The notes beneath the pieces were generated by a model that saw only the letters and a program-made list of their open reading frames with translations, did not search any database and had not been told where the DNA came from. Shown in pieces: positions 1-4,600 of a DNA stretch of 32,740 bases. Each line of letters begins with the position of its first letter. Position 1 is the stretch's first letter. Source of the stretch: Candidatus Saccharimonadota bacterium (GTDB lineage: Bacteria; Patescibacteriota; Saccharimonadia; Saccharimonadales; Saccharimonadaceae); NCBI GenBank assembly GCA_017404795.1, contig JAFRBR010000014.1, positions 1-32,740 on the forward strand, in the 5' to 3' direction. A program made the translations under genes and the position numbers.

Positions 1-91
1 AATGGGATAAAGAAAACCTAGCAAGTTGGATTAAATATAAGAATATTTAACAATTTGCATACCATACATTAAAAATGAGATTTTGTCAAAA

Positions 92-125
92 CGACATTTT
101 AACATGATAAACTATGCGACATTTT
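92..125 (+). promoter_or_regulatory. Direct repeat upstream of sufC, possible operator
   Basis: The 9-mer CGACATTTT occurs at 92-100 and again at 117-125, 25 bp apart (about 2.4 helical turns), just upstream of the sufC -10 box. Such spacing would suit a dimeric regulator of the Fe-S operon, but no known operator consensus is recognised. The region before it (1-91) is AT-rich and shows no gene. Confidence 0.2.
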
Positions 126-144
126 CACGTAATATTGACAGTCA

Positions 145-153
145 TGGTATAAT
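145..153 (+). promoter_or_regulatory. Extended -10 promoter of sufC operon
   Basis: TGGTATAAT is an extended -10 element (TGnTATAAT). A TTGACA lies at 135-140, but it is only 7 bp upstream and so cannot act as the paired -35. Transcription would start near 160-161, directly at the GTG of sufC, predicting a leaderless mRNA. Confidence 0.6.
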
Positions 154-160
154 GTACTCA

Positions 161-856
161 GTGTTAGAGCTAAAAAATATCAGTTTCAGCCCCAGAGACG
201 GTTCTAAGCGTAAAATCTTGGACCAGATTTCTCTGTGCATCAACCCCGGCACTCTTACCGTTATCACTGGCCCCAATGGTTCCGGCAAATCCACCCTCGC
301 CCAGATTATCATGGGCCTTAAAGCCCCCACCTCTGGCCAAATCTTCCTCAATAATCAAAATATCACTAGAGACGACATCACCACTCGCGCCAAGAAGGGC
401 ATCAGCTTCTCCTTCCAGCAGCCCGTTAAGTTCAAAGGTCTCACTGTCTACGAACTTTTAAACATCGCTAGCGGCGAACTTACCAGCCAAAAATCAGCCG
501 GCCAATACTTGAGAAAAGTCGGTCTAGACCCAGCCACATACCTCCCCCGCGAAATCAGCGACAAACTCTCTGGCGGGGAATTAAAACGTATCGAAATCGT
601 CTCCGTTCTCGCCCGCAAAGACTCCAAACTGATTATTTTTGACGAGCCCGAAGCCGGTATCGACCTCTGGAGCTTCACTCATCTCATCAAAGTCTTCCAG
701 AAGCTAAAATCCGAAAACCGCACCCTCATCATCATCTCCCACCAAGAGAAAATCCTCAAAATCGCTGACCGGATCATAGTTCTAGAGAACGGCAAAATCA
801 AATCAGCAGGCTCTCCCACCAAAATCCTTCCAATAATCACCGGAGGTAAACCATGA
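161..856 (+). CDS. sufC: SufC-like Fe-S cluster assembly ATPase
   Basis: ABC-type ATPase of about 231 residues that energises the SufB-like scaffold during Fe-S cluster assembly in the cytosol. Visible motifs are Walker A GPNGSGKST (residues about 37-45), signature LSGGELKR (about 136-143) and Walker B LIIFDEPEAGID (about 157-168). It has no membrane segment, unlike a transporter permease. The frame is open upstream to an ATG at 83 and has another ATG at 152, but the 152 ATG overlaps the -10 box. GTG at 161 matches the usual start of the family (LELKNISF) and the predicted transcription start. It overlaps the next gene by 4 bp (ATGA), so the two are translationally coupled. The pairing of one SufC with one SufB/D-like protein and no sufS, sufE or sufU alongside matches the minimal SUF-like (SMS) arrangement known in archaea and CPR bacteria. 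The function call is strong; assignment to SMS is inference. Confidence 0.88.
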   Translation: MLELKNISFSPRDGSKRKILDQISLCINPGTLTVITGPNGSGKSTLAQIIMGLKAPTSGQIFLNNQNITRDDITTRAKKGISFSFQQPVKFKGLTVYELLNIASGELTSQKSAGQYLRKVGLDPATYLPREISDKLSGGELKRIEIVSVLARKDSKLIIFDEPEAGIDLWSFTHLIKVFQKLKSENRTLIIISHQEKILKIADRIIVLENGKIKSAGSPTKILPIITGGKP

Positions 857-1779
857 ACCTAAGCGACGCAGAAAATCAGATTTTCTGTGAACTACTAGCC
901 GGTCCAAGCGAAATTCCCGAGGGCGCCTATAATTTCCGCGTCAACGGCAAATCTATCGGTCGTCACTCCACCGCCAACATCAATATCATCCCCAAACCAA
1001 ACGGCCAAGGCCTAGATATTTTCATCAAGCCAAACACTAAAAACGAAACCGTCCACATCCCAGTCGCCATCAGCGTTACCGGCCTTAAAGAGGTCGTCCA
1101 CAACGATTTTCACATTGGCAAAAACTCCGAAATAACCATTATCGCCGGCTGCGGCATCTATAACTGTGGCGGCGCAAATTCCCAACATGATGGTATCCAT
1201 CGCTTCAACGTCGGCAAGGGCGCTAAAGTCACCTACATCGAAAAACACTACGGCTTCGGCCCTGGCCAAGGTGGCAAAATCTTAAACCCCACTACCGAGC
1301 TCCACCTCGATGAGGGCTCCATCGCCCACCTCGAACTCGAACAAATCAAAGGCGTCGACTCCACCATTCGTAAAACCACTGCCGATCTCGCCAAAAACGC
1401 TAAACTCACCGTCAAAGAGCGACTTTTAACTCACGGCCGCCAAACCGCCGAAAGCATCTACCAAATAGAGCTAAACGGCAAAGATTCCACCGCCGACCTC
1501 GCCTCCCGTTCCGTCGCTCGAGACCTTTCCAGTCAAATCTTCAAAGCCACAATTACAGGGAACAACATCTGCCGCGGTCACTCCGAATGTGACGCCATTA
1601 TCATGGATCAGGCCAAAGCCCACGCCATCCCAGCCTTAGGCGCCAAGACCAAAGATGCCGCGTTAATCCACGAAGCCGCCATTGGCAAACTCGCCTCCGA
1701 CCAACTCGCCAAACTCATGACCCTCGGCCTCACTCGCCCCGAAGCCGAATCCAAAATCATCAACGGCTTCCTAAAATAG
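853..1779 (+). CDS. sufB: SufB/SufD family Fe-S scaffold (short, SMS-like)
   Basis: Protein of 308 residues in the SufB/SufD family, which forms the right-handed beta-helix platform where Fe-S clusters are built with SufC. It is much shorter than canonical SufB (about 480-495) or SufD (about 420), which fits the short archaeal/CPR type. The core is AGCGIYNCGG near residues 98-107, followed by repetitive beta-rich sequence and the C-terminal HEA motif (IHEAAIGKLA, about 273-282) where SufB and SufD contact SufC. Cysteines in the core and in the SECDAI segment could serve in cluster assembly. It is coupled to sufC by an ATGA overlap and ends 102 bp before nrdD. Whether it behaves as SufB or SufD cannot be decided from sequence alone; being the only such protein, it would form a homodimeric scaffold. 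Confidence 0.8.
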   Translation: MNLSDAENQIFCELLAGPSEIPEGAYNFRVNGKSIGRHSTANINIIPKPNGQGLDIFIKPNTKNETVHIPVAISVTGLKEVVHNDFHIGKNSEITIIAGCGIYNCGGANSQHDGIHRFNVGKGAKVTYIEKHYGFGPGQGGKILNPTTELHLDEGSIAHLELEQIKGVDSTIRKTTADLAKNAKLTVKERLLTHGRQTAESIYQIELNGKDSTADLASRSVARDLSSQIFKATITGNNICRGHSECDAIIMDQAKAHAIPALGAKTKDAALIHEAAIGKLASDQLAKLMTLGLTRPEAESKIINGFLK

Positions 1780-1881: not shown

Positions 1882-4065
1882 ATGTTCAAGCGCATCGTCA
1901 AGAGAGACGGCAAAATCGTCAAATTTAATCCCGAAAAAATCACCGAAGCTATCGCCAGTGCCGGTCTTGCTACCGAAGAATTCAAATATGACCGAGCCAA
2001 AGCTTTAACCGAAAAAGTCTTGCAAAAAGCCGAAGAGAAAATCACTGCTCGCACCCCTAGCGTCGAGCAAATCCAAGACATCGTCGAGGAAGTCCTCATG
2101 GAATCCAGCTTCAAAAAGACCGCCCGCGCTTACATTCGCTATCGCCAAGAAAGATCCGAAATTCGCAACGCCAAGTCTGACCTCATGAAAGTTTATCGCA
2201 CCATCAGCCACGCTGATGCCGCCGCAGACTCCGATGTTAAGCGTAGCAACGCTAATGTCGACGGCGACTCTGCCATGGGCAAAATGCTTCAGTTCGGTGC
2301 CGAAGGCTCCAAGGTTTTTGCCAAAACTATGCTTCTTCGTCCCGATATCGCCGCCGCTCACGATAACGGCGACATTCACATTCACGATCTCGATTTTTAC
2401 GCCACTGGTACCCTCACTTGTTGCCAGTCCGACCCCTTTACCATGTTCGAAAACGGCGGGTTTAACACCGGTCACGGGCACCTCCGCACCCCCAAATCCA
2501 TCGGCTCCTACGCTGCTCTGGCCGCTATCCTCCTTCAAGCCAATCAGAACGAGCAGCACGGCGGCCAGTCTATACCTAATTTTGACTACGCCATGGCCCC
2601 TGGTGTAGACAAATCATTCAGAAAAGCTCTCACCAAGAATCTCGAAAAATACAACTCCTTCACCGGCAAAAAACTAGATCTCAAAGTCAAAGACAGCATC
2701 AAATTTGGCGACGACGCCAAACTTAAAAAAGCCAAATGGCCAACCGAGGTTATTAAAGCCAGCAACGAAGACGTTGAACGCGAGACTCTTCAAGCCATGG
2801 AGGGCTTCGTCCACAATCTCAACACCATGCACTCTCGCGCTGGCGCCCAAGTGCCATTCACCTCAATCAACTTCGGTACCGACACCAGCCCCTCTGGTCG
2901 CTTAGTTTCTAAATACCTCTTAGAAGCCACCGAAAACGGTCTCGGCAAGGGCGAAACCCCAATTTTCCCAATCAGCATCTTCAAAGTCAAAGAAGGCGTC
3001 AACTATAACCCCGAAGACCCCAATTATGATCTCTTTAAGAAATCGATGGAAGTCTCTGCCAAGCGTCTCTTCCCGAATTTCTGCTTCATCGACGCCCCCT
3101 ACAACCTCAAGTATTACAAAAAGGGCGATTACCGCACCGAAATCGCTACCATGGGCTGCCGCACGCGGGTCTTTGCTTCTATTTTCCCAGAGTCAGACGG
3201 CATCGTCACTGGCCGTGGCAACCTCTCATTTACCACAGTTAACCTCGTCCGCATCGGCATTCACCACGGCATTTGTACCGGTGAAAGGAAAGAAGCCGAC
3301 TGGAACGGTTTTTATAAAGAACTTGACGAAAAAATGGACCTCGTAAAAGACGAACTCTTGGAGCGTTTCGAGTTCCAAGCTAATCAGCACGTCCGTAACT
3401 TCCCATTCTTAATGGGCCAAGGCAACTGGTTCGGCTCCGAAAAACTCGGCCCCAACGACCGCCTAAGAGATGTCATCAAACACGGTACTCTCTCTATCGG
3501 CTTTATCGGCCTAGCTGAAACTCTCGTGGCCATGGTCGGCAAACACCACGCCGAAGACGAAGACGCCAGGGAACTAGGCCTCGATATCATCACCCACATG
3601 CGTGAAAAATGTGATCAGTATAGTAAGAAGTACAAACTCAACTTCAGCCTTCTCGCCACCCCAGCCGAAGGCATTGCCGGTCGTTTCACCAAGATAGACC
3701 GCAAAGAATTTGGCGAAATCCCAGGTGTCACCGACCGCGATTTCTATACCAACTCCTTCCACGTGCCAGTTTATTACCCCATTTCTGCCTTTGAAAAAAT
3801 CGAACTCGAGGCCCCTTATCATGACCTCTGTAACGCCGGCCACATCACTTACATCGAATTAGACGGCGATCCCTCTCAGAATATCGCTGCCTTCGAATCC
3901 GTCATCCGCAAAATGCACGACTGCGGTATCGGCTACGGCTCCGTCAACCATCCCGTCGACCGCGACCCCGTCTGTGGCTTTTCCGGGGTCATCTCCGGCG
4001 ACCGCTGCCCCCACTGTGGCCGTCTCGAAGGCGACCTACCGTTTGAGAGGATTAAAAATGCATGA
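1882..4065 (+). CDS. nrdD: Anaerobic (class III) ribonucleoside-triphosphate reductase NrdD
   Basis: Protein of 727 residues that reduces ribonucleotides to deoxyribonucleotides without oxygen, using a glycyl radical made by NrdG. The N-terminal 90 residues (VKRDGKIVKFNPEKITEAI) form an ATP-cone allosteric domain. The catalytic barrel carries LTCCQ (Cys180/181), the active-site MGCRTRV (Cys426) and GRGNLSFTTVNL. The C-terminus is odd. The Zn-ribbon region reads DRDPVCGFSG then CPHCGR, so the first of the four usual cysteines is Asp, and the protein stops after PFERIKNA, exactly where relatives continue into the glycyl-radical motif (RITGYLVG-type). Gly699 in VCGFSG is the only glycine in a loosely similar context, 28 residues from the end. 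It is transcribed with nrdG, with an 8-bp overlap. Family assignment is certain; whether it works as a single chain is not. Confidence 0.93.
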   Translation: MFKRIVKRDGKIVKFNPEKITEAIASAGLATEEFKYDRAKALTEKVLQKAEEKITARTPSVEQIQDIVEEVLMESSFKKTARAYIRYRQERSEIRNAKSDLMKVYRTISHADAAADSDVKRSNANVDGDSAMGKMLQFGAEGSKVFAKTMLLRPDIAAAHDNGDIHIHDLDFYATGTLTCCQSDPFTMFENGGFNTGHGHLRTPKSIGSYAALAAILLQANQNEQHGGQSIPNFDYAMAPGVDKSFRKALTKNLEKYNSFTGKKLDLKVKDSIKFGDDAKLKKAKWPTEVIKASNEDVERETLQAMEGFVHNLNTMHSRAGAQVPFTSINFGTDTSPSGRLVSKYLLEATENGLGKGETPIFPISIFKVKEGVNYNPEDPNYDLFKKSMEVSAKRLFPNFCFIDAPYNLKYYKKGDYRTEIATMGCRTRVFASIFPESDGIVTGRGNLSFTTVNLVRIGIHHGICTGERKEADWNGFYKELDEKMDLVKDELLERFEFQANQHVRNFPFLMGQGNWFGSEKLGPNDRLRDVIKHGTLSIGFIGLAETLVAMVGKHHAEDEDARELGLDIITHMREKCDQYSKKYKLNFSLLATPAEGIAGRFTKIDRKEFGEIPGVTDRDFYTNSFHVPVYYPISAFEKIELEAPYHDLCNAGHITYIELDGDPSQNIAAFESVIRKMHDCGIGYGSVNHPVDRDPVCGFSGVISGDRCPHCGRLEGDLPFERIKNA

Positions 4066-4600
4066 TTATTTACTAAACAATTTACCTAAACAGCTTGAAA
4101 CTCCAGAGGGCTACATCAGGCTCAGTGGCCCCCTGGAGCACGACAACATCGTCAATGGCGACGGCCTCAGAGCCATTCTCTGGACCCAAGGCTGCCCCAA
4201 TCACTGCAAAGGTTGTCAAAACCCCGAAACGTGGAGCTACGAAGACGGCTATCTTGCCAAGATCGACGACCTAAAAGAAGAGTTGAAGGCCTTTAAGGGT
4301 CAAGCCGGCCTCACTTTCTGTGGCGGGGAACCATTCGTTCAGGCCAAGGCTTGCAAAGAAATCGCCGACTGGTGCCGTAGTGAGCTAGGCTGGAACGTCT
4401 GGAGTTTTTCCGGTTTTACTCACGAAATCATCAAAGAATACGGCAAAGAACCTTGGGAGTTTTTAAAATCCCTCGATGCTCTTATCGACGGCCCCTTCAT
4501 CCTAGAAAAGCGTGACTTAAGCCTCCGTTTTCGCGGTTCCTCTAATCAGCGTCTATTAAAATTACAGTCAGGTACTGGCAAAATTTTGTCAATTGAATAG
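4058..4600 (+). CDS. nrdG: NrdD-activating radical SAM enzyme NrdG
   Basis: Activase of about 180 residues that uses a 4Fe-4S cluster and S-adenosylmethionine to generate the glycyl radical on NrdD. The cluster motif CPNHCKGC is at Cys46, Cys50 and Cys53, in the context IVNGDGLRAILWTQGCPNHCKGCQNPETW that is typical of NrdG. TFCGGEPF follows near residues 87-94. ATG 4058 is chosen because GAGAGG lies 8-13 bp upstream and the longer frame upstream runs inside nrdD. It overlaps nrdD by 8 bp. A run of five A at 4054-4058 sits at the junction: slipping one base there would fuse NrdD to NrdG, although nothing shows this happens. Confidence 0.92.
   Translation: MHDYLLNNLPKQLETPEGYIRLSGPLEHDNIVNGDGLRAILWTQGCPNHCKGCQNPETWSYEDGYLAKIDDLKEELKAFKGQAGLTFCGGEPFVQAKACKEIADWCRSELGWNVWSFSGFTHEIIKEYGKEPWEFLKSLDALIDGPFILEKRDLSLRFRGSSNQRLLKLQSGTGKILSIE

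Follow-up and report, generated by a model that had tools for sequence, protein, structure and literature searches.

How can a class III ribonucleotide reductase (RNR) work when its catalytic subunit ends just before the segment that carries the glycyl radical? The question is raised by nrdD, the gene for this subunit, in a 32,740-nucleotide stretch of Candidatus Saccharimonadota DNA (contig JAFRBR010000014.1 of assembly GCA_017404795.1; the whole stretch is called the window below). The source is a tiny gut bacterium, a saccharibacterium of the Ca. Nanosyncoccus type, whose 692 kb genome lies in 27 contigs and is 94% complete. We consider it very likely that the enzyme is here split over two gene products, and that a small protein resembling GrcA (YfiD), the spare part of pyruvate formate-lyase (PFL), has turned into its obligate subunit.

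The nrdD gene occupies positions 1882..4065 of the forward strand and encodes 727 amino acids, comprising an ATP-cone (residues 4-92), the class III RNR barrel and a Zn site. The protein scores 1027 bits against NF005497 (cut-off 764), the profile of the class III RNR catalytic subunit, and 607 bits against the Pfam family NRDD (PF13597; cut-off 26.2). The latter match, however, runs from profile position 2 to 529 out of 562, leaving the last ~33 positions, the radical segment, absent from the chain, as the earlier note on this DNA had said. The C-terminus reads ...DPVCGFSGVISGDRCPHCGRLEGDLPFERIKNA, and where the window NrdD stops at PFERIKNA (4039..4065, forward strand), full-length relatives go on with PFERLRRITGYLVG.... 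Scanning all 32.7 kb of the window in six frames for RxxGYL, ITGY or GYLVG-type motifs gave a single match, a chance one interrupted by a stop. This agrees with the absence of the motif from the frames after the nrdD stop in the earlier note, and rules out both a frameshifted NrdD and a motif at another place in the window. A deletion or an assembly error, which that note had left open, does not account for the end either, because about 90 species of the genus end alike.

When the whole genome was searched with PF13597, one further match was found, to profile positions 532-562, in a 145-amino-acid open reading frame (ORF) outside the window. It lies on the reverse strand (G000:C19:28535-28969, equivalent to L002:1414-1851) of a contig 83 kb in length, 28 kb from its start, and is flanked by polA and mutM. 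Residues 1-80 of the encoded protein make up an N-terminal domain and residues 85-117 are homologous to the C-terminal radical segment of a glycyl radical enzyme (GRE), which is the hallmark of a GrcA-type protein. The sequence contains ...KFERLRRITGYLVGTLDRWNDAKKAEESARVKH..., and within the radical segment FERLRRITGYLVG and RVKH are invariant across the small family. Placed on the structure of Prevotella copri NrdD (PDB 8p23), the window NrdD corresponds to chain residues 5-705 and the small family to residues 705-738, without a gap. In this alignment Gly94 of the small protein is equivalent to Gly711 of P. copri NrdD (the chain offset being four residues), which is the radical glycine of that enzyme (PMC11226230). 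PF01228 (Gly_radical) matched neither the small protein nor anything else in the genome, and a PFL-type GrcA was thus rejected; searches with PF13597, PF01228 or A3 found no other carrier of the radical motif in this genome.

The small gene follows the truncated NrdD across the genus. We surveyed 174 Ca. Nanosyncoccus genomes, scoring the small gene as a second PF13597 match; the small ORF itself was read in 25 genomes, and four more were found in a sister genus by A1 match. NrdD was truncated, ending at about profile position 529-532, in 90 genomes and full-length in 72. The small gene was present in 84 of the 90 truncated genomes and in 26 of the 72 full-length ones (Fisher p 2e-15). Genome incompleteness alone would predict 8.1 misses among the former and 6.8 among the latter, and we found 6 and 46, respectively; the small gene is therefore dispensable beside a full-length NrdD but retained beside a truncated one. 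Together with the complementarity of the two proteins, this co-occurrence strongly supports the idea, raised in the earlier note, of a small protein that provides the segment separately, in the manner of YfiD/GrcA for PFL.

In a phylum-wide sample of 380 genomes, the small gene was found only in this genus and one sister genus, where NrdD is full-length. When 38 NrdDs (17 truncated, 21 full-length) were placed in a tree with the radical segment left out, the truncated proteins formed one clade, requiring one change, and the presence of the small gene required five. The gene lies beside polA and mutM in most truncated genomes, and in varied places in full-length ones. With the sister genus taken as outgroup, which sets the direction of change, the simplest history would be that a duplicate of the segment was at first optional, and became essential when the NrdD of one lineage lost its own. 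One genome (G035) carries two different small radical genes, L039 and L047, on separate contigs; they may reflect a duplication, or a bin that contains a second strain.

By every indirect test the truncated NrdD appears to be a live enzyme. The cysteines at the active-site position, Cys180-Cys181 (LTCCQSD; codons at 2419..2424, forward strand), and the one at the thiyl-radical position, Cys426 (MGCRTR; codon at 3157..3159, forward strand), which aligns with MGCRTR of P. copri NrdD, are invariant in all 38 aligned proteins, truncated and full-length. Their catalytic roles we take to be those known from E. coli and T4 NrdD biochemistry, so that the window protein retains the active-site cysteines of a class III catalytic subunit. 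Among the 17 truncated NrdDs, 508 of 727 columns are invariant. The genome search found no large subunit of a class I or class II RNR, and NrdD therefore seems to be the sole source of deoxynucleotides apart from salvage. The gene for the activase is also in place, directly after nrdD as the earlier note had read it: nrdG (4058..4600, forward strand; 180 amino acids, radical-SAM) overlaps the end of nrdD by 8 bases, scores 128.9 bits against TIGR02491 (cut-off 126.1) and has its CxxxCxxC motif intact, which is the gene arrangement expected of a class III RNR.

The Zn-site region (Asp695-x-x-Cys698 ... Cys709-x-x-Cys712; 3964..4020, forward strand) includes Gly699, and its cysteines are likewise invariant across the aligned truncated and full-length NrdDs. 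The first Zn cysteine is indeed replaced by Asp in the window NrdD, as had been noticed before. Full-length relatives that have the radical segment, however, also read DPVCGF or DPVCGY; the Asp is thus a separate lineage trait, and we rejected it as a hallmark of truncation. Most truncated relatives (e.g. L020, L022 and L029) end in a short Cys-containing tail, such as FEKVCNCAKGN, SCSC or ACC, for which a redox role is conceivable; the window NrdD has no such tail.

The N-terminal domain of the small protein is, by prediction, a degenerate ATP-cone that probably serves in docking. In the predicted model, the confidence (pLDDT) is ~88 over residues 11-80, and the fold of the N-terminus matches an ATP-cone, with NrdR (9gex) as a match at Z 9.1 and a root-mean-square deviation of 2.0 over 76 residues, followed by NrdB (5olk; Z 7.8) and P. 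copri NrdD (8p2c; Z 7.6). The first 39 rows of the comparison were all entries for RNRs or NrdR, aligned on the cone in nearly every case, whereas other folds reached Z 5.0 at most. The nucleotide contacts of the ATP-cone hairpin are made by Lys and Arg (PMC12662201), and in the alignment of the small family the KRDG of this hairpin is replaced by YKNP or YFxP. We treat the domain as degenerate because of this replacement and of the weak sequence match to NrdD cones given below. Since cones of class III RNRs touch each other and the core of the enzyme, a docking role is plausible.

We infer that the two proteins form a complex in which the radical is installed on the small protein and transferred to NrdD. 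The window NrdD would supply the ATP-cone, the catalytic barrel and the Zn site, and the 145-amino-acid protein would bring the glycyl-radical segment in trans. NrdG would take a hydrogen from Gly94, with the small protein docked on the truncated NrdD or flipped out of it. The segment and its loop would then enter the barrel at the place of the cis C-terminus, beside Cys426, and the radical would pass from Gly94 to Cys426, after which catalysis would proceed as in an ordinary NrdD. The cone-like domain would probably be the docking handle. Such a protein may have originated as a spare part for NrdD, and it still occurs beside the full-length enzyme in the sister genus and in some relatives; in a single clade it may have become obligatory after NrdD had lost its own segment.

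The closest analogues are spare parts of PFL. GrcA/YfiD of E. coli, a protein of ~14 kDa, repeats the C-terminal glycyl-radical segment of PFL and provides the radical in trans; with cleaved PFL, activation of YfiD requires the partner enzyme, and its extra N-terminus aids binding (PMC8683613). T4 Y06I (vs.6) is likewise a spare part for PFL (PMC1524935). The small protein resembles both in repeating the radical segment of a GRE behind an extra N-terminal region, and by this analogy a GrcA-like function is well supported. It is not a member of the GrcA family, which has PF01228 sequence and PFL as partner: it matches PF13597, and its co-occurrence is with NrdD, its candidate partner. Its N-terminus, moreover, is predicted to be ATP-cone-like, in contrast to the disordered one of YfiD. 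The truncated NrdD is also permanently without its own segment, and the small protein would therefore be a subunit rather than a repair part.

The system shares the ATP-cone, the barrel, the Zn site, NrdG and the RITGYLVG motif with other class III RNRs (P. copri NrdD/NrdG, 8p23; the PRK07111/NF005497 group). It differs from the P. copri type in that the radical segment sits on a polypeptide of its own, encoded elsewhere, and that Asp stands for the first Zn cysteine. RNRs made of two separately encoded chains are also known, among them the class II NrdJa/NrdJb of Pseudomonas (as cited in PMC9669993) and split nrdA and nrdD genes of phages (PMC3653736), but those cuts part other regions or stem from introns, inteins or homing endonucleases. 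We found no described split RNR with the radical domain alone on an unlinked gene that has an extra domain of its own.

Related proteins are carried by viruses. The cone-type small protein also occurs in IMG/VR contigs L144-L148, with terminase and dihydrofolate reductase genes nearby. Far commoner in IMG/VR is the same radical segment behind another domain of ~50 residues, or behind almost nothing. The former make up a large and diverse family (L227-L300, e.g. L227:4001-4258 and L228:4001-4255) of ~85-130 amino acids, with a beta-alpha-beta-beta N-terminus before the NrdD radical segment, and the very short forms have 50-75 amino acids (GEGVKFERLRRITGYLVG). The proteins of L227-L300 are probably NrdD spare parts. 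Their 'type B' N-terminal domain gave no convincing fold match (best Z 4.8) and did not rank with the ATP-cones, a result that excludes nothing. One further virus ORF (L183:2995-3273) has a cone-like N-terminus and breaks off at FERLRRITGKTQ, partway through the radical motif.

Most virus contigs examined, up to 268 kb long, have the small gene without nrdD, which would be expected if the part served the host enzyme, although the contigs may be fragments. In four contigs (G609, G613, G618 and G619; loci L310, L308, L309 and L311, respectively), however, an NrdD ending at the same point is encoded close to the small gene, and nrdG then follows in G613, G609 and G618 (in G618 by reading only). 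Judged from their sequences, these loci are independent cases of the split architecture, and provide the best linkage evidence for the small protein working with NrdD and NrdG. Two of the four contigs also have a MazG-like gene. In the isolated Eggerthella phage EL753P1 (OP172808, 6.6-7.2 kb; L313:1-3075) nrdD lacks the radical segment, and 0.5 kb downstream there is an unannotated remnant of a small radical gene, its frame interrupted in the record. At another locus (L191:884-3161; also L149) a small radical gene directly precedes a truncated nrdD, with a convergent serine recombinase after it; possibly an element has integrated at the nrdD 3' end. We rejected such prophage insertion into a host nrdD as the origin of the virus small ORFs, since it leaves the loci with nrdD, small gene and nrdG unexplained; it also fails to explain the gene of Nanosyncoccus, which lies next to polA and mutM.

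Several observations weigh against the split enzyme. Six truncated genomes have no detectable small gene, and two of them are 92% complete. In Ca. Nanosyncoccus the small gene is unlinked to nrdDG, and in the predicted model of the small protein the radical segment on its own has low confidence. Residues 1-80 match no Pfam family, PF03477 included, and hhalign of the N-terminus against NrdD cones gave a weak result (probability 1.8%, E 0.028); sequence thus failed to prove the ATP-cone identity, for which the fold comparison speaks.

Could the truncated NrdD be dead or decaying, with deoxynucleotides salvaged from the host bacterium and the small protein a leftover or in some other role? Saccharibacteria are reduced, host-dependent cells, and four Ca. 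Nanosyncoccus genomes, including one that is 96% complete, showed no NrdD. Nevertheless, the truncation is common to ~90 species, the columns and catalytic cysteines described above are conserved, nrdG is intact, nearly every truncated genome has kept the small gene, and the search of the genome for a further RNR large subunit found none. This explanation, and the broken enzyme of the earlier note, are therefore very unlikely. The small gene beside full-length NrdD in 26 genomes, and without nrdD in most virus contigs, would also suit a regulator or decoy that competes with the cis segment or sequesters NrdG rather than supplying the radical. We give this very little credence, as the truncated genomes keep the gene though they have no cis segment to compete with, no other motif carrier was found in the genome, and virus contigs unite the truncated nrdD, the small gene and nrdG.

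The missing segment might also come from a source other than the small protein. The earlier note proposed Gly699, within VCGFSG near the C-terminus, as a new radical site. But this glycine belongs to the Zn-site loop, full-length relatives have the same motif in addition to a normal radical glycine, and a cis site would leave unexplained why the small gene co-occurs; we put the probability of this or any other cis site close to nil. With the genome in 27 contigs and 94% complete, an unseen gene or trans-splicing could provide the segment, the small protein being a facultative repair part only. That seems extremely unlikely, since 84 of 90 truncated genomes share one partner and the PF13597, PF01228 and A3 searches detected none other in the genome studied here. 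The split enzyme with GrcA-like subunit thus remains the best explanation. Going further, the small protein may be a true second subunit, a dissociable cone and glycyl-radical protein whose docking is set by cone-cone contacts and perhaps by ATP/dATP through the cis cone, with viruses using related proteins to keep the host NrdD alive or to build a split enzyme of their own. We hold this extension to be doubtful, though possible; if true, class III RNR would be a two-component enzyme like class I.

Directly upstream of nrdDG in the window (83-1779) are SufC- and SufB/D-like genes, assigned by reading, an Fe-S cluster system adjoining the gene of an Fe-S activase.

In 2021 only YfiD and Y06I, both for PFL, had been validated, and whether other GREs have spare parts was being asked (PMC8683613). 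In the open-access literature we found no report of a spare part for NrdD, of a trans radical domain, or of a GRE that has its radical domain permanently on a different polypeptide. As an NrdD spare part the small protein is a strong candidate, and one seen in three stages: absent, beside a full-length NrdD, and obligatory. With it, radical transfer, recognition by NrdG and oxygen damage could be studied in a natural system whose glycyl-radical domain can be supplied, left out or exchanged. Our results also suggest that many gut and rumen viruses carry spare parts for NrdD, as T4 does for PFL, a plausible means of securing deoxynucleoside triphosphates while infecting anaerobes.
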